33,672 nucleotides of DNA, taken from Methanobacteriota archaeon. GTDB taxonomy: Archaea; Thermoplasmatota; Poseidoniia; Poseidoniales; Thalassarchaeaceae. Both the position numbers and the translations under genes were made by a program. The notes beneath the pieces are model-generated. The model did no database searches and had not been told where the DNA came from. It saw nothing but the letters and a program-made list of their open reading frames with translations. The number at the start of each line of letters is the position of its first letter. Position 1 is the stretch's first letter. This document shows, piece by piece, positions 18,533 to 26,786 of the stretch. The stretch covers positions 1-33,672 of the forward strand of contig PBMR01000015.1 of the NCBI GenBank assembly GCA_002722735.1, given 5' to 3'.

Positions 18533-18626
18533 GCTCAGGCCCCACTAGAAGGTCGTTTGAATTATTCGTGCCTTTGGGGGATTTTTGCATCGCAGCACTC
18601 TTGACAGGGCAGTCTTTCGTTGCACC

Positions 18627-19142
18627 ATGGACCCCACGATCTCTGTCTCCACTGTGGTTCGCCCCCACGAGGACCCAAGAAGGGTAACGGAGTCGGTACA
18701 GGCACTGTTTCCCGATTGGAATCCAGAATCAGTTCCGGACGCGCAGTGCTTCCCCAACTCCAAGGGGGAAGTGGAATTGAAAGGTACATCGGATTCGCTG
18801 GATGTCGTACTAAAGATCGTTAGGGAACAGAGAGTGCTAGATACTGCTCTCGATGCTATGGCTATGTCCTTGGTAGGCGAGTCCACTGCCTTCTCCCTCT
18901 CAAGGCAATCTGCACTAACTGGCAAAGTCTCGTTCGTGTTGGATGGTGACCCCTTGGGTGGGACGATGGAGGTAGTGGTCGAGGGTAGGGACTTGGGTTT
19001 GTGGCTGGAACAGCAGACATGGCATGGAGGAAGAGATTCAATCCCCAGGAGCACTGGTGACGAACTTGCAATGACAGGGGAGGGGTATCCTTCGGAGTGG
19101 TTCGACTCAAAGGGACGGAAGACCATTGAGAGGATGGATTAA
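18627..19142 (+). CDS. UPF0201-family RNA-binding protein
   Basis: 171 residues from ATG 18627. The N-terminus TISVSTVVRPHEDPRRVTESVQALFPDW matches the archaeal UPF0201 family (an RNA_binding Pfam family with a ferredoxin-like or L5-like fold). The middle VVLKIVREQRVLDTALDAM and ALTGKVSFVLDGDPLGGTMEV complete the roughly 135-residue family core. About 30 extra residues follow at the C-terminus (RDSIPRSTGDELAMTGEGYPSEW in part). Members are thought to bind RNA, but their exact role is not settled. The frame is open further upstream to TTG 18585, which adds residues outside the family. The 3' end overlaps the convergent Pcp-Nudix gene by four bases. Confidence 0.85.
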   Translation: MDPTISVSTVVRPHEDPRRVTESVQALFPDWNPESVPDAQCFPNSKGEVELKGTSDSLDVVLKIVREQRVLDTALDAMAMSLVGESTAFSLSRQSALTGKVSFVLDGDPLGGTMEVVVEGRDLGLWLEQQTWHGGRDSIPRSTGDELAMTGEGYPSEWFDSKGRKTIERMD

Positions 19143-20128
19143 GTGACTGGCAGGCCATTAACGAACCATGACTCGACAATTGGAACATCGGCAGGAAGCC
19201 AATCGACTTCGAGTAGTTCTTCCCTGGAAAGCCACCTTACCTCGTCGTGCTCCGTCGGTTTGACGGTCTCAGGCGTGACAATCCCACAATACCATAGATG
19301 CAGAGATACGTCCCTGTCTTCGTAACTGTGTCTAATCTCTGTAATTTTATGTGATGGTTCGATTGAAATCTGTAGCTCCTCGTTGATCTCCCTGATTATC
19401 GCATCTCTTGAAGACTCTCGATCTTCGATCTTTCCCCCGGGAAACTCCCACATACCGGCCCACGTGTCACCAGGGGGCCTTCGGCATGCAAGTATCCTGT
19501 GCCGTTCATCGATGACTAGTGCTGATGCTACTTCGAAATGTGGCCTTATGCACAAGCATCTAGAGATTCGGCTTACCACCGAAATCTGTACGCTGATTGG
19601 CATTATTGTTTTTTCAGGAAGATGCATGAAAAGCACCGGAGTGGATGGATGCTGCGACTCAGAAATGGCCAAGAGGGTCCTGTAGTAGGTCTCATTGCAA
19701 ACGTATCCTCCGGCATCCTCGCTCCAAGAAATTCTTTCGAAATCGTCTATGGACTCGTCAATAACATGCTTAGGGGAACTGGTTGCAATGACTTCTGGAG
19801 CACCAGCAACGATTGTCCCTGATTTTATTTGCCTTCGGGAATTGTCAGGGATTTGCATACAGTACCTGTTCTTTCCAAACTTCTCGAGTTTTATGATCTC
19901 TGATTCGGGCGAGAAACCTAGGTGCAAGATTGCTGTGAATACAGCACCTGTAGAAATTCTTTCAGATGGATCTCTGGACCCCTTTTCGTCAACAGATAGC
20001 AACATGGTTTCCACCTCCAGACCCTCGATTCCATTGATAGAAATCTCTTCAATGATATCTTGGGAGGGATTTTCTGTGTGTTTTGAGAAAGGGGTGAATC
20101 CCGTCAGCAGCAGTCCGGGTAGAGCCAT
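19139..20128 (-). CDS. Fusion of pyroglutamyl-peptidase I and MutT-like Nudix hydrolase
   Basis: One uninterrupted 329-residue frame from ATG 20128. Residues 1 to about 194 are pyroglutamyl-peptidase I (C15), which removes N-terminal pyroglutamate from peptides. The evidence is LLLTGFTPFSKHTENPSQ at the N-terminus, Glu82 in IIKLEKFGKNRY with IPDN after it, Cys144 in GGYVCNETYYRTL, and His169 in LFMHLPEK. These sit at almost exactly the catalytic positions of bacterial Pcp. From about residue 197 a Nudix domain follows, WAGMWEFPGGKIEDRESSR leading to REINEEL. The Nudix box is complete apart from Gln in place of its late Gly. The WEFPGGKIE context is that of MutT/8-oxo-dGTP or CTP-type pyrophosphohydrolases. 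No stop, frameshift or start codon context separates the halves. Confidence 0.9.
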   Translation of the reverse strand: MALPGLLLTGFTPFSKHTENPSQDIIEEISINGIEGLEVETMLLSVDEKGSRDPSERISTGAVFTAILHLGFSPESEIIKLEKFGKNRYCMQIPDNSRRQIKSGTIVAGAPEVIATSSPKHVIDESIDDFERISWSEDAGGYVCNETYYRTLLAISESQHPSTPVLFMHLPEKTIMPISVQISVVSRISRCLCIRPHFEVASALVIDERHRILACRRPPGDTWAGMWEFPGGKIEDRESSRDAIIREINEELQISIEPSHKITEIRHSYEDRDVSLHLWYCGIVTPETVKPTEHDEVRWLSREELLEVDWLPADVPIVESWFVNGLPVT

Positions 20129-20198: not shown

Positions 20199-20564
20199 AT
20201 GGTGGCGAGCATCGTGGCTGAGGAGTATGTGGTTCAACTTGAGCCCGACGATGAGTCGAGTGCAAACCCCCTAGGCGTGCTTTCGGTCATCTGGCATGAA
20301 TTGAGCGGCGGTGTTGGCCCCTGGGGAGCTGTCAGGCCCCTATTTGCAGTAGCCTTATCCCTCGTCCCCCTACTATTCCTAGGACAGCACTTCAACCGAG
20401 AGCATAGGAAGGGTGGAGAGTGGTTCTTGATTCAGTTCCCACTGATATTATCACTCGTACTTTGGCCTTTTCTATACTTCTGGTCAATAGCAGACGCATG
20501 GTGGGTCTCGAGTGGAATTGTGGCTTCGGCAGAGACGAGGGAGAATTTAGAATCCATTGGGTAG
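20199..20564 (+). CDS. Small two-helix membrane protein
   Basis: 121 residues from ATG 20199, family not recognised. After an acidic N-terminus (EEYVVQLEPDDESSANP) come two transmembrane helices (AVRPLFAVALSLVPLLFLG and FLIQFPLILSLVLWPFLYFW). They are linked by a short basic loop (HFNREHRKGGEW), placing that loop in the cytoplasm by the positive-inside rule. It is divergent from the Pcp-Nudix gene across 70 bases, and its last 18 bases overlap the convergent helical-protein gene. Confidence 0.7.
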   Translation: MVASIVAEEYVVQLEPDDESSANPLGVLSVIWHELSGGVGPWGAVRPLFAVALSLVPLLFLGQHFNREHRKGGEWFLIQFPLILSLVLWPFLYFWSIADAWWVSSGIVASAETRENLESIG

Positions 20565-21059: not shown

Positions 21060-24000
21060 TCAGGAGGTTGTGCGATCGTCGTACCTGATGGGGGAACCGC
21101 TATTCCCCCTGATTCCATCCAATAGGTCATCATCAATCTCGAAGAAATCATTCAGCCAATCCCCATCAGTATCCCAATTCGTCGGGTCGGTCCCATCGGC
21201 AATTAGATCACCATCGATATCAAGGTACCACCAACCGTAGGGATTCTCCCCGAGGCCAATGTTGGGCAGGTGGTACCTATCTCCTGCCAATCGATTAAAT
21301 TCATCCGTCCAAGCCCCATTGACAAAAATGATGTCATCACTGGTGTTGACATCCTCATAGTCGGCATCGTTATCATCGATAATCAGGGCATATAGTGAGT
21401 CCCCATTGTTGAGTCTGTTCATTCTCAAGTAATTGGATGACAATGAGTTGGAGCCCGAACAAGTGCCCAACAGCGTCTCCCTCAGTTGCCACCATTCCTC
21501 TACGGTGTCCCCGGAGCAGTCGTGTAGAGAGGAGGCTCGGACCGCGGAGGGAGAAGACAGAGTGGCATTAACGACAGCATAGTACTCCTGGAAGTTATTG
21601 TACGGTTCATATGTACATGAAGAGCCAGAACAGGCCCATTCACCATCCATGTCCGCATCCTGTGCTGCATCAGATGGATCGGTGGCATCGTGAGTGAACC
21701 AAGTCCAGCCAAGTGACGGTCGGGCGATGTAGCCCTTCGAGATATCCACAGGTTTCCAGTTGTTTGGAGTAACTTCCTGCCACTGCACTTCGATTTTATA
21801 GAAAGAGGACCAATTATCGTTAGTCTCATTCCACCCACGGTAGTGCTCGTAGAAGTCTGGCATCATGTCACCGTCTGTGTCATTATCGAGGGGGTTTGTA
21901 CCGTACTTGAAAATCTCAAGTCCGTCGGACAGGCTCATGTCTCTGACATAATCAATCATAATCCCGCCTTGGAACACCGGAGTCATGGCAATTGAGTCAC
22001 CATCAGAGTCCAAGTCGAGTGGTTTTGTGCCATTGTGGAATTCCATGATATTTGTGAAGTACAGTGCAGTGACCCCGTTTGCTATCTGCTGATCGGGCGC
22101 ATAAGCCGAGAACTCGCGATTCGCCCAGGTCCCTTGCTCAGCGGGATTGTCCCCAATCAGCCTGTCGAACCAGCCGTCGGCATCGGGGTCGTAGTTCGCA
22201 TCTAGGGGGTTGATCGGATTCAACGACCAGCGGAAGGAGTTGACTGGGAGTACCTCGCCATAGAGGGAATAACAGAACTCCCAACCGTCGGGCATACCAT
22301 CCCTATCGGAGTCTGCATCGGTTGGATCGCTGATTCCAATGAGGGTACTGTTGAAGTTATCAGGATTGAATGAGTTGATCAGCCCCATCTTCTCTGAAGA
22401 GGATAGGCTCTTTGTGGCGAACTGCAGGTAAAGTTGGCCCCATGCAGCTTCCATCGAAAGCCCATTCTCCTCGATTTGAGCGGTAACAGCATCCGAGCCA
22501 TAGGACACCATTCCAGTACCATTTGGCATGCTGCCTATGGCTAATCTCTTACCGTACCACCTGGAGTCGTACTCAGCAAGGTTGTCAAAGGACTCGGAAT
22601 CGGAAATCTCCCCATCTTCGTTGCAGTCGTAGGAATCCCCGTCGGAGTCAAAATCTGAATCGGTATCACTTAGAGGGTTCATGGTCCAACGATTGTCCTC
22701 AAGATCCCAGCCTGTGAACCAATACTCGTACCCATCGCTCATTCCATCACGATCGGTGTCGATTTCGTTTGGGTCTGTGATTCCTATTATAGAGGATAGA
22801 AGAGGCTTGGCAGCGTGTCCATCCTGCCAATCAGAGAATTGCTCCATCGCCAACTCGGCCCTGCCTTCCTTGTTGAATAGGATTCTGTAAATTCTATTCA
22901 CCGAGTCTAGGTGATTCAATTGATCCGCCTCTTCCCAAAATAGTGGGGCATCGGGAGGGGAGAGTTCGCCATTGACCGGGCCATTGGCAGTTAGGCTCAG
23001 TTCGGTCAAATCACGGATGCCGTCACCGTCTGAGTCATAGGATCCGTCGTTTGGAGTTAATGGATTGAGTGTCCAGACACTGTCGGTTGAGTTCCACTTA
23101 GAAAAAATCAACTCTACTCCGTCAAGCAACCCATCGCCGTCTGAATCTGGGTTGTTTGGATCTGCCGTTGATCCCGTAGAGTTTCCCTGCTCTTCTGTGA
23201 TGAATGATCCAAACGACAAGGGTGATTCGGCCCCGATCCAAGGGGTCTCCAAGAGTGACCCCGCTGCATCAGAGAGGTAGAACTGGGGGACAGAAATATT
23301 TCCATCGCTTTCACTCAATTGGCCGTCGATGACGTTGTACTCCTCCCAGTTATTCATCCCGTCGCCATCTGGGTCACCGAGCCTGTCATCGCTATTCACA
23401 GGATTGAGCGTCCAGTCTTGCTCAAAGAGGCTCCACCGGGCATTGAAGACCTCCCACCCATCTGGCATCCCGTCCCTGTCCGAATCAGAACTAAGGGGGT
23501 CAGACGTGCCTATATCGTCCGTAGGTAGGCCAGCACTCAACGATTCGTAGTAACTCCCAATGTACTCGCCAAAAGAACCTGGCGCTAGTCCTTCCCATGA
23601 CTCGTGGGGCAAGACTGAGGTCAGATTGCCCGGGTAGTATTCACCAGATGAGGTACCGCTCGGCAAGAGGATTTCTGATTTAAGGTGGTATTCGAGCCAA
23701 TTGACAAGGGACTCCCCCAAATCCAATGTTCCGTCGTGATTGTAGTCGTAGCCATCACCGTCTGGATTGTTGAGAAAATCAGATCCGTTCATCGGATTGA
23801 TTCCTGCATTTTCAGACGGCCAGTGGCAAGAGTAGCGAGCCTCCCAGCCATCTGGTAGGGAATCGTGGTCAGAATCCACTGAGTTAGGATCGGTACTGAA
23901 CCAGTTGGCTGCCGATTCCTTCGATTCACCATGAGTGTCCAGACCCAATGCCATAACACGATTGTGGAGGTTTGCCCACTCGTACTCGCAGATATTGCTG

Positions 24001-26786
24001 AGTCCATCGCCGTCTGCGTCCTGCATGGCATCTGAAGGGTCCCTAGGATCTAGGGTCCAGTTGTTCCCCCCGGTATAGACATCCCCCAACCACCTCCTAT
24101 GGCGGATCTCCCAACCATCAGGCATACCATCCCCATCCGAGTCTGGATTTGTTGGGTCAGTGGGCCCATCGCTACCACCACCCGAGCCCGAGCCTAGCCA
24201 CCCTCCAAGGTGGACATCCCTTGCTGACTCCCCTGTGTTGGAGTCACAAATGTAAGCCCCATTGAGGTAGTGGCAATCAAATGAAGTCGAGTCAAAGAAC
24301 CAACCCCAATACTCCTCTCCATCACTCAAACCATCGCCATCAGAGTCGGAGTTTCGGGGGTCGGTGCCGTTGAATCCATCCATCGTAGCCGAAATGAATC
24401 GAAACTCGTCCAAGTTGCTCCATTGCCTCGTGTAATCCCCATCGTCACCCCATGAAATCGAAACTCCATCGGCGTCTGGATCTCTGAGGCTGTCGTTGGG
24501 GTCGGTTGGATCTAGGCCGTAAGCTACCTCCCACCCATCTGGCATCCCATCCAAATCCGAATCACGAGAGTTGGGGTTCATGGGTGCGATGTTCATGTAC
24601 CTGCCAGGAGAGATGCCAGCGAAGAGCCACTCCTCCCCGTCTTTGTCTAAAGTTACAATTGAAGTTACGAGCCCGAGAATCCCAGTTTGGTTGAGGTTCA
24701 GCCCAAGTATCCCCGAAGATCCTCCCTCTAAGCACCATGTGCCATCCTTCGACCCAACCACAACCATCCCACTCAGGGGAAGGATTGCACGGACGTCGTT
24801 TGCCCCGGACAGCAGGCCATCGACGTTGAGCATCCTGTCATTATCGAATGCTTCTGTGGGTTGGGATATTATCAGGTCCATGTTGATCTGATGCAGACCG
24901 CCACTTGTGCCCACCCAGACTCCCTCCTCCCCCTCGATTCCATCGTCAATCACAATGGTGTTGACCCTAGCGGCGTTGGTGGAGTCAAAGAGATTGGTAT
25001 TAACGAAATACTCTGCGTTCATGATGTCGAAAATCCACCATGGCTGGCCGATCGAGTTTGATCCGTCAGTAGTATTCCAACCCAGCATCCCAACATCCGT
25101 ACCTATGAACAGAAGCGGGCCCCTCCCAAGAATCTCTACATGTGCGGCCGTGGTAACTGTGGCATTGGAGTCGGAGAGCATTGCTGATAGTTCCACCAGA
25201 GGAGAAGGTTCGAAGCTAGAGGAGTTGGCCTCGAATCCAACTGACAACTTGACCTTCCATGCATTCAATCCTCCGAAAAGCAGGAAGTCGAGGTCATCCG
25301 AATTGGTCTTTAGGGGGGTTATGACAGAGACGGGCCCTATCTCTTGTATTTTCATTGAGTCCATCAAAGGTAGGCCGTTCTCCATCCGGAGGGTGTGGAA
25401 TCCAACATTGGTTCCCAGTAAGAGGTAGTCCGAGTCACCAATCGCATAGCGACTCATCGTCAATGCTTCGATACCTGACTGGAGCTCAAAACTGGAAGTG
25501 GTCCCCCTAAACGGATCTATGACAGTGATTCCAAATCTTGAGCCGACAATTAGGCGGTCCCTTTGTTGATCAGCAATCACGGTGTGGACAGCAGGATCGA
25601 AGAGGCTAGTTGCGGTCGAGTGGTCAAAATTTAGCACCTGGCCATGTTCTGATGAAACCTTGGTGCCCCTGAGACCCGGCCTGACTCCGGATGCCTCATC
25701 GAAGTCGATGGAATACTCCTCATAGTTGCTGAGTGACTCCCCCCAGTGCGCCGTCGATGTAGTTACATCCGGGGTGATGAAGCCATCCCTATTGCCATCC
25801 CATCCATCGTAGTCACTATCTAGGACAGAGTCACTGGCATTACGGGGGTCCATGCCGTGGTGAGCCTCCCAACCGTCGGGAATTCCATCTCCGGGAACTA
25901 TGAGTTGGGCCGCCACGACCTCGTCCCATGAATAATGATCTGAATCGCCAAATCTGGGGTCACTACCCATCCAACCATCAGTAGAAGTAGGTCTGGCGTA
26001 CTGTGTCTGGCAAGCATCCTCAGACAGCCCGTAGATTTGCCCGTAGCACCAAAGTCCATCTCGCTCTGTGACCCATTCTTGAGGAGTGCCATAGAGGTAT
26101 TCTTCGGTGTTTGTGAATCTCTCACTAATGTCGATGGCCCCATCGCTGTTGAAATCGAATCCATCACCGCAGCCCCAACTGAAGTCAACCTCGCATCGAT
26201 CGAAGTCCTCAATCAGATCGCTGGGATCCAGAGGATCGAAGTATTGGCACTCCCAACTCTTCTTCGAATTCAATGGATCGTTTGGGTTGTTGCTGAAAAG
26301 GCCGCCAGTCGTACACATGTATACTTCATAGCCATCAGGAAGGCCATCGCCGTCGGTGTCGGAAACTCTGGGATCGAGGTATTCCCTCAGACCTGTAGCG
26401 GTCTCCTCCGGTGACTTCCCGGTAAGGCTATTCCTCTCTTCGAAGCATCTGTCAATGGTGTAGGGCCAACAGTACTCCTGCAAGGCGGTAAGCCCATCTC
26501 TGTCATTGTCTGAGAGGTTATCAGTGGCGTCGGAGGGGTCAAGGCCACTGATGGTAATCTCCATGGTTACGGTCTCCAAAATGTAGTCGTCCCCGAAAAT
26601 GACTTCGTAGAGATCAGGGATGAGGTCTCCGTCCTGATCAGTGACAGGGGACACAGTGCCTTCTGCGAGGTTCGGATTGGTCGAAGACACCGGGGACTGA
26701 GGCCGGGTTTGAGAAACAAAGGCGAGGCTCGATAGAATGAGGAAGGAAAATATCAGGGCAGACTGCTTGCGCCGCACGTTACTCAC
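21060..26786 (-). CDS. Giant secreted protein of DxDxDG (thrombospondin-3-like) repeats with an internal beta-propeller-like region
   Basis: 1908 residues from GTG 26786. A signal peptide (LIFSFLILSSLAFVSQTRP) leads the mature protein. About 25 calcium-binding-type Asp loops follow, such as DTDGDGLPDGYEVY, DSDGDGMPDGWEIRH, DSDRDGMPDGWEVF and DPDGDGMNNWEEY. They often alternate in roughly 100-residue modules of the pattern DSDxDGMPDGWE, then WTLNP, then DPDGDG..N..EY. At about residues 380-730 the repeats are interrupted by a beta-propeller-like domain (RLIVGSRFGITVIDPF, YLLLGTNVGFHTL, LLFIGTDVGMLGW, GVWVGTSGGLHQI, MVVVGSKDGTWCL). There is no C-terminal membrane anchor; it ends SGSPIRYDDRTTS. 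It is probably a released or cell-surface-associated adhesin or scaffold that rigidifies with calcium; substrate unknown. Confidence 0.92.
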   Translation of the reverse strand: MSNVRRKQSALIFSFLILSSLAFVSQTRPQSPVSSTNPNLAEGTVSPVTDQDGDLIPDLYEVIFGDDYILETVTMEITISGLDPSDATDNLSDNDRDGLTALQEYCWPYTIDRCFEERNSLTGKSPEETATGLREYLDPRVSDTDGDGLPDGYEVYMCTTGGLFSNNPNDPLNSKKSWECQYFDPLDPSDLIEDFDRCEVDFSWGCGDGFDFNSDGAIDISERFTNTEEYLYGTPQEWVTERDGLWCYGQIYGLSEDACQTQYARPTSTDGWMGSDPRFGDSDHYSWDEVVAAQLIVPGDGIPDGWEAHHGMDPRNASDSVLDSDYDGWDGNRDGFITPDVTTSTAHWGESLSNYEEYSIDFDEASGVRPGLRGTKVSSEHGQVLNFDHSTATSLFDPAVHTVIADQQRDRLIVGSRFGITVIDPFRGTTSSFELQSGIEALTMSRYAIGDSDYLLLGTNVGFHTLRMENGLPLMDSMKIQEIGPVSVITPLKTNSDDLDFLLFGGLNAWKVKLSVGFEANSSSFEPSPLVELSAMLSDSNATVTTAAHVEILGRGPLLFIGTDVGMLGWNTTDGSNSIGQPWWIFDIMNAEYFVNTNLFDSTNAARVNTIVIDDGIEGEEGVWVGTSGGLHQINMDLIISQPTEAFDNDRMLNVDGLLSGANDVRAILPLSGMVVVGSKDGTWCLEGGSSGILGLNLNQTGILGLVTSIVTLDKDGEEWLFAGISPGRYMNIAPMNPNSRDSDLDGMPDGWEVAYGLDPTDPNDSLRDPDADGVSISWGDDGDYTRQWSNLDEFRFISATMDGFNGTDPRNSDSDGDGLSDGEEYWGWFFDSTSFDCHYLNGAYICDSNTGESARDVHLGGWLGSGSGGGSDGPTDPTNPDSDGDGMPDGWEIRHRRWLGDVYTGGNNWTLDPRDPSDAMQDADGDGLSNICEYEWANLHNRVMALGLDTHGESKESAANWFSTDPNSVDSDHDSLPDGWEARYSCHWPSENAGINPMNGSDFLNNPDGDGYDYNHDGTLDLGESLVNWLEYHLKSEILLPSGTSSGEYYPGNLTSVLPHESWEGLAPGSFGEYIGSYYESLSAGLPTDDIGTSDPLSSDSDRDGMPDGWEVFNARWSLFEQDWTLNPVNSDDRLGDPDGDGMNNWEEYNVIDGQLSESDGNISVPQFYLSDAAGSLLETPWIGAESPLSFGSFITEEQGNSTGSTADPNNPDSDGDGLLDGVELIFSKWNSTDSVWTLNPLTPNDGSYDSDGDGIRDLTELSLTANGPVNGELSPPDAPLFWEEADQLNHLDSVNRIYRILFNKEGRAELAMEQFSDWQDGHAAKPLLSSIIGITDPNEIDTDRDGMSDGYEYWFTGWDLEDNRWTMNPLSDTDSDFDSDGDSYDCNEDGEISDSESFDNLAEYDSRWYGKRLAIGSMPNGTGMVSYGSDAVTAQIEENGLSMEAAWGQLYLQFATKSLSSSEKMGLINSFNPDNFNSTLIGISDPTDADSDRDGMPDGWEFCYSLYGEVLPVNSFRWSLNPINPLDANYDPDADGWFDRLIGDNPAEQGTWANREFSAYAPDQQIANGVTALYFTNIMEFHNGTKPLDLDSDGDSIAMTPVFQGGIMIDYVRDMSLSDGLEIFKYGTNPLDNDTDGDMMPDFYEHYRGWNETNDNWSSFYKIEVQWQEVTPNNWKPVDISKGYIARPSLGWTWFTHDATDPSDAAQDADMDGEWACSGSSCTYEPYNNFQEYYAVVNATLSSPSAVRASSLHDCSGDTVEEWWQLRETLLGTCSGSNSLSSNYLRMNRLNNGDSLYALIIDDNDADYEDVNTSDDIIFVNGAWTDEFNRLAGDRYHLPNIGLGENPYGWWYLDIDGDLIADGTDPTNWDTDGDWLNDFFEIDDDLLDGIRGNSGSPIRYDDRTTS

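Follow-up and report, generated by a model that had tools for sequence, protein, structure and literature searches.

The window analysed in this study, a stretch of 33,672 nucleotides from a 1.40 Mb, 20-contig and roughly 80% complete genome (G000) of the archaeal order Poseidoniales (Marine Group II), carries a gene in which a pyroglutamyl-peptidase (Pcp) and a Nudix hydrolase are encoded as one protein (Table 1). In the original prediction a one-frame Pcp and Nudix fusion was placed at 19139-20128, and these coordinates were confirmed exactly, as were both domains, each of which scores above its Pfam gathering cut-offs. The strand had been left unstated; it is the minus strand, the plus-strand frame over the same interval being riddled with stop codons. 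The frame, 990 bases and 329 codons long, crosses the junction of the halves without a stop codon, and G+C is 0.458 in the Pcp half and 0.502 in the Nudix half (0.482 and 0.493 at third positions). Sequence matches of the protein to PDB entries split in two, with Pcp structures falling within aa 2-194 and Nudix structures within aa 194-325.

Table 1. Coordinates of the fusion gene, its parts, its neighbours and a related locus feature (window positions unless a locus is named).
Feature	Position	Strand	Basis and remarks
Pcp-Nudix fusion gene	19139..20128	minus	329 aa in a single frame that begins with ATG; conserved throughout the order
Peptidase_C15 (Pcp) half, aa 6-171; Glu82, Cys144, His169	19616..20113	minus	Pfam PF01470, 52 bits (gathering cut-off 22.7)
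Last Pcp helix and joint to Nudix half, aa 178-196	19541..19597	minus	AlphaFold2 helix/strand boundaries and near-fixed spacing
Nudix half (NUDIX_4), aa 203-318; Nudix box aa 232-254; Asp314	19175..19522	minus	Pfam NUDIX_4, 78.2 bits (gathering cut-off 35); Pfam NUDIX, 68.5 bits (gathering cut-off 21.1)
RNA_binding-like gene, downstream neighbour	18585..19142	plus	PF01877, 25.5 bits (cut-off 26.9); overlaps the end of the fusion by 4 nt
Membrane-like 121 aa protein, divergent upstream neighbour	20199..20564	plus	No Pfam match; cluster c2; starts 70 nt from the start of the fusion
c17 lipoprotein-like protein	L101:9194-9985 and L105:9492-10250	minus	HExGHxxG motif

The order of genes around the fusion is largely shared among 34 Poseidoniales loci, with cluster c2 found in 33 and clusters c1, c3 (DnaJ) and c4 in 32 each. 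The downstream neighbour in the window was taken as a c4 member by its place and strand, a c4 gene lying there in 32 other Poseidoniales loci. A 193 aa minus-strand frame at 18545-19126 was rejected as a gene, since it is the plus frame over this region that has the RNA_binding-like match and the c4 place. In all 33 loci in which the gene was found (34 were examined; the gene caller missed L115) the upstream neighbour lies on the opposite strand, and the downstream neighbour does so in 31 of them; the two exceptions, in the window and in L101, arose where another or an over-long frame was called. As both flanking genes are on the opposite strand, an operon partner was rejected; the fusion thus looks monocistronic and its context gives no pathway.

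The original prediction had also placed Glu82, Cys144 and His169 at the Pcp catalytic positions, which was supported by alignment with Pcps of the PDB, and had described the Nudix box as almost complete. It reads G232-x5-E238-x7-R246-E247-x2-E250-E251, with Gln253 in place of the usual Gly as its sole deviation. Residue conservation was counted in 99 recovered coding sequences, 69 of them distinct, of which 54 were at least 290 aa long and fused, the 15 shorter rows comprising 13 Poseidoniales Pcps that stand alone and two Pcps from other Thermoplasmatota. In the fused genes E82 and H169 are present in 54/54 and C144 in 53/54 (the remaining one is an unreadable X), and all three are kept in every one of the 15 shorter rows. 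On the Nudix side E238, R246, E247, E250 and E251 are each found in 54/54 fused genes, Gly 231 and Gly 232 are likewise invariant, and D314 is found in 52/54; the late box Gly, which is Gln253 in the window protein, is present in 34/54. Median dN/dS over 36 usable pairs was 0.16 in the Pcp half (maximum 0.64) and 0.11 in the Nudix half (maximum 0.66), values that we read as purifying selection and nothing further because several pairs are near saturation. The fusion architecture, its conservation and the purifying selection on it are established by computation.

A profile was built from an alignment of 25 rows (A1), every one of which, the window protein included, matched both Pfam families (each alone, at 0.001), and was searched across 339 genomes of the class, 318 of them Poseidoniales. 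At 1e-12 a match was obtained in 270 of the 339 genomes, all matching rows listed belonging to Poseidoniales. A match at 1e-68 was taken to mean that both halves are present, because the strongest Pcp-only match read had a value of 1.6e-65 (G023). At this threshold 245/318 Poseidoniales genomes in 21 of 22 genera matched, although a few close to the threshold (e.g. G332, G102 and G101, each of which gave two separate matches) may represent partial or split genes, and so did 30 of the 35 Poseidoniales genomes of high quality (completeness of 90% or more, contamination of 5% or less). Conservation in related genomes, proposed as a check when the fusion was predicted, was therefore borne out. All 150 places listed at 1e-68 span the profile from position 1-5 to 319-326 of 327, and a stop lies inside the matched stretch in four of them. 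Together with the 25 A1 members that match both families, the 245 genomes exclude a chance co-occurrence of the two domains.

Twenty-five genomes of the order fall between the two thresholds, 12 of genus g1, four of genus g3 and nine others. The 16 genomes of g1 and g3 are Pcp-only by score, which was confirmed in the sequence for 13 of them, and the nine weaker matches (G257, G266, G336, G115, G147, G178, G215, G226 and G227) may be contig-edge or split cases. The window's own genus is g1, in which just 3 of 28 genomes (G000, G019 and G025) reach 1e-68, with 12 Pcp-only and 13 having no match at 1e-12. Five high-quality genomes of the order have no both-half match, three of them with Pcp alone (G016, G018 and G029) and two with no Pcp match (G022 and G044); besides these last two, 46 Poseidoniales genomes have no match at 1e-12, and many of those listed are incomplete. 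G003, G008 and G316 look Pcp-only by their table rows alone. No 1e-12 match was found in genus g6 (e.g. G032, G279, G280 and G281), which belongs to the window's family and is alone among the 22 genera in this respect; the whole fusion gene has apparently been lost there.

In a scan with peptide patterns taken from the window protein eight loci were recovered, four of them fusions (L033-L036), three Nudix only and one Pcp only. Two of the four fusions, all from named public records, are titled Euryarchaeota, another 'Marine Group II euryarchaeote MED-G36', and one is a 'Candidatus Thalassarchaeaceae' MAG. That a sequencing, frame or binning error had joined two genes is scarcely conceivable, given that the identical join is found order-wide, in these public records and in conserved synteny. 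Separate adjacent genes in close relatives, fused here by a frame error, had been envisaged in the original prediction as the finding that would count against it; the relatives proved to be fused, and the 13 unfused ones that were read carry a lone Pcp.

Outside Poseidoniales no fusion was found in 21 genomes of the same class, nor elsewhere in the phylum among the matches listed in 389 genomes (many of them of the order), a search made with the C15 family only and judged by frame length. The 22 stand-alone Thermoplasmatota Pcps are 152-238 aa long and have no C-terminal Nudix domain. Long C15 frames in G343, G409 and G393 were rejected as fusions, their extra length lying upstream of the Pcp part, as was G367 (L089), whose Pcp part fills 208 codons from start to stop and leaves no room for a C-terminal Nudix domain. 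Long C15 frames were also listed for G501 and for G401, where the translation covers the matched stretch. In two bacterial phyla (396 and 395 genomes) no fusion was found with a threshold of 1e-32 and up to five scored candidates per genome listed, a setting at which a divergent fusion could be missed. The 15 and 21 genomes that did match did so via the Nudix part or little more, and a match in G1071 that begins at position 139 was rejected because it runs through eight stops. None of 61 plasmid records, eight of them listed, covers 80% of the fusion protein, and not one of the 80 viral loci retained from 150 covers aa 1-135. No description of a Pcp-Nudix fusion was found in open-licence papers, whose supplements may list the family; two new Poseidoniales-specific peptidase families are mentioned in one section of PMC9258230, where they are left unnamed. 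The architecture is built from two known families and is apparently undescribed.

The 13 unfused Poseidoniales relatives encode Pcps of 193-212 aa. With six Nudix queries no Nudix remnant was detected beside or after the Pcp stop in 10 stand-alone loci (L111-L120; best E 0.44), and in the nine of these that were resolved by the gene caller the next gene past the Pcp is the usual opposite-strand neighbour. In a Pcp tree of 75 rows the Poseidoniales form a single clade (100/94) in which the 13 stand-alone rows are nested among the fused ones. The stand-alone label requires five changes on this tree, at least four of which are forced by the starred branches. Because fused rows occur throughout the clade and have a common joint, these changes were read as losses of the Nudix half, and the best reading is that it was lost at least four separate times with the Pcp kept, at least twice in the window's genus and at least once within g3. 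The tree of the Nudix half is poorly resolved and is compatible with a single origin, of which it gives no proof. Fusion-like Nudix domains apart from a Pcp were not found in 60 genomes, as the closest Nudix-only match was an extra copy in G056 (7.5e-25) and the others were at 3.2e-8 or weaker. This copy is a stand-alone 135-codon Nudix frame (G056:C181:4025-4405, minus strand) that G056 carries besides its fusion, with 39% identity over aa 197-321. One ancient fusion followed by several later Nudix losses would best account for the trees. Since the Nudix half was repeatedly lost while the Pcp was kept, the Pcp half can do without its partner, and a peptidase half worth keeping alone argues against an obligate two-step reaction.

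The two halves meet at a joint of almost constant length. An AlphaFold2 model of the fusion, calculated from an alignment of eight rows (five fusions and three Nudix-only rows), had a mean pLDDT of 89 and a pTM of 0.81, and places the final Pcp helix at 178-193 and the first Nudix strand from 197. In 52 of the 54 fusions 15 residues separate columns 184 and 200, and loops within the Pcp are more variable than this joint, the spacing of C144 and H169 ranging from 19 to 29. The 13 stand-alone Pcps stop 26-30 residues past the catalytic His, close to the domain boundary of the fusion. So nearly constant a joint length suggests that the two halves are arranged in a defined way. In a Foldseek search against the PDB the top match of the model was 5z48, the D. 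radiodurans Pcp with bound pyroglutamate (TM by target 0.81), and the Nudix half was matched by BdRppH (0.88), an M. mazei MutT-like protein (0.84), R. rubrum 3r03 (0.84) and E. coli Orf135/NudG (0.77).

Like pyroglutamyl-peptidase I of D. radiodurans (5z48), T. thermophilus (2ebj) and P. horikoshii (1iu8), the Pcp half has the common fold, the Glu-Cys-His set and the GFxPF and AGxYxCN motifs. It differs from them in being joined to a Nudix domain, shows 18-28% identity to the Pcp fold matches listed, and scores 44-63.5 bits with the NCBIfam models PRK13194, PRK13196, PRK13193, PRK13197 and TIGR00504, well under their cut-offs of 199-308; L028 and L013 likewise miss the cut-offs of the NCBIfam Pcp models listed for them. 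When 67 Poseidoniales rows were compared with the 22 stand-alone Thermoplasmatota Pcps, differences were found at 45, 50, 99, 138, 146 and 147. Gly50, Arg99 and Glu146 were present in all 67 Poseidoniales rows and Thr147 in 64, the last two directly following Cys-Asn (CNET). Arg99 stands mostly in the context DNSGR in Poseidoniales, and some stand-alone rows have DNxGxQP. In the rows printed the segment past the catalytic His is also shorter in Poseidoniales than in the stand-alone Thermoplasmatota forms. The Phe residues of the GFxPF motif, which have a role in pyroglutamate binding, were kept, with Phe11 and Phe14 each present in 66 of the 67 Poseidoniales rows.

Since the NCBIfam scores are below cut-off and the DN-motif and post-Cys residues are altered, the specificity of the peptidase may have changed, and the divergent Pcp half may not be pyroglutamate-specific. 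A re-purposed Pcp half might open another amide or lactam, possibly in a nucleotide-linked metabolite, with the Nudix half serving the same salvage or repair route. The six divergent positions, Arg99 and CNET among them, the sub-threshold scores and the near-fixed joint would fit such a role, and so would the scarcity of pyroglutamate recycling genes in 40 relatives (25 from genus g1 and 15 from the other family of the order), where PxpA (PF03746) was found in 0/40 and the 5-oxoprolinase-type subunit Hydantoinase_B (PF02538) in 2/40, compared with 6/14 and 5/14 control genomes. We nonetheless hold this reading to be unlikely, if a real contender, as Glu, Cys, His and the GFxPF Phe residues are all kept, the top fold match is a pyroglutamate-bound Pcp, and the Nudix half was lost at least four times with the Pcp retained.

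Two observations from these searches are recorded here for their own sake. The window genome carries, on contig C14 (L132:1321-4475), a Hydantoinase A/B-type, ATP-dependent lactamase-like pair, to which its own Hydantoinase_B match belongs and whose nearest models are those of caprolactamase; being of this type and under every NCBIfam cut-off listed, it was rejected as evidence for coupling. A Peptidase_C15 match in another genome of the phylum, G401 (L121:6239-6790, minus strand), seemingly lacks the catalytic Cys and His, reading AGWGVFNHVYY for AGxYxCN and MQLPP for xHxP, and is possibly a Pcp pseudoenzyme.

The Nudix half shares with NudG and MutT (NUDIX_4) the Nudix box, the EH...W and PAD motifs and the fold (2rrk, 3grn, 3ees, 3r03). 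It differs from them in being joined to a peptidase, in having Gln253 for the late box Gly and in its scores, which are under the cut-offs of all NCBIfam models concerned. PRK08999 was best with 107 bits, followed by the NudG equivalog (89 against a cut-off of 156 bits) and the 8-oxo-dGTP diphosphatase MutT (74 against 148 and 69.4 against 97.9). Asp314 aligns with the Asp of the PADIP motif of NudG, the residue of E. coli MutT at this position being Asn. PRK08999, a Nudix domain with a ThiE/TenI-like half, and PRK05379, the bifunctional nicotinamide-nucleotide adenylyltransferase/Nudix family, resemble the fusion in combining Nudix with an unrelated metabolic enzyme, but their partner is not a peptidase and the match is confined to the Nudix half of the fusion.

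Nudix-like domains act as sensors in other proteins, and it is conceivable that the Nudix half is no enzyme itself and serves as a nucleotide-binding regulator or scaffold of the peptidase, a role with which the near-fixed joint length would agree. The five charged box residues tested are retained in 54/54 fusions, more than binding alone needs, and the median dN/dS of this half is lower than that of the Pcp half; a purely regulatory Nudix domain is therefore quite improbable.

We consider it reasonably probable that the fusion is one bifunctional, probably cytosolic housekeeping protein with two independent active sites, joined once in the ancestor of Poseidoniales. The N-terminal half would be a cysteine peptidase of the C15 type, using Glu-Cys-His catalysis to take pyroglutamate, or something closely related to it, off the N-terminus of peptides, and the C-terminal half would be a metal-dependent NudG/MutT-type hydrolase that converts a (deoxy)nucleoside triphosphate to the monophosphate and pyrophosphate. 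The halves would have been fused by a short joint of fixed length, their sites would work independently, and the join would most likely provide shared expression and stoichiometry and not substrate transfer. The catalytic activity of both halves is inferred, as are their putative substrates and the reason for the join. Against this explanation, the fixed spacing and the pTM of 0.81 are hints that the halves have a set arrangement, for which mere co-expression would give no need, both halves fall under the NCBIfam cut-offs, both are present in so few g1 genomes, and the Nudix tree is poorly resolved.

As a special case of the bifunctional enzyme, the protein might be, as suggested in the original prediction, a sanitation enzyme whose halves clear cyclised N-terminal Gln and damaged nucleotides. 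The Nudix half is nearest to the NudG/MutT families, it has the Asp of the NudG PADIP motif, and NudG acts on CTP, 5-methyl-dCTP and 2-OH-dATP according to a table of PMC5158307. Since Marine Group II is described as proteolytic in PMC6461757, the Pcp has an obvious use, and peptide scavenging accounts for it equally well; the Nudix half was, moreover, repeatedly lost in the window's own genus. In this specific form we regard the proposal as unlikely.

It is rather improbable that a rigid two-domain enzyme was invented once in which a Pcp of altered specificity and the Nudix half both work on, or are regulated by, one shared metabolite. If this were true, the protein would represent an undescribed step of repair, of salvage or of nucleotide-gated peptide scavenging, and the lineages without the Nudix half would retain the simpler peptidase function only. 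A fusion that is conserved this widely, is compatible with one origin and keeps both active sites intact is a clue to a connection between two functions that are not known to be linked. One recombinant protein suffices for assay, and close relatives with the peptidase half alone provide a natural control.

Further from the fusion, two features of the surrounding locus may be added. Upstream of it, at 21060-26786 of the window (minus strand) and in the syntenic loci L091-L130, lies a very large and probably secreted protein with frames of approximately 1530-1960 aa. By sequence these large proteins form two clusters, which stayed apart at the threshold applied: c9 occurs in 17 loci and c12 in 16, the latter with a partner, c14, in 14 loci. 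A gene replacement at a fixed locus is possible. In 10 loci of the order's other family a lipoprotein-like protein with a metalloprotease-like motif (c17; Table 1) lies between two conserved neighbours of the fusion.
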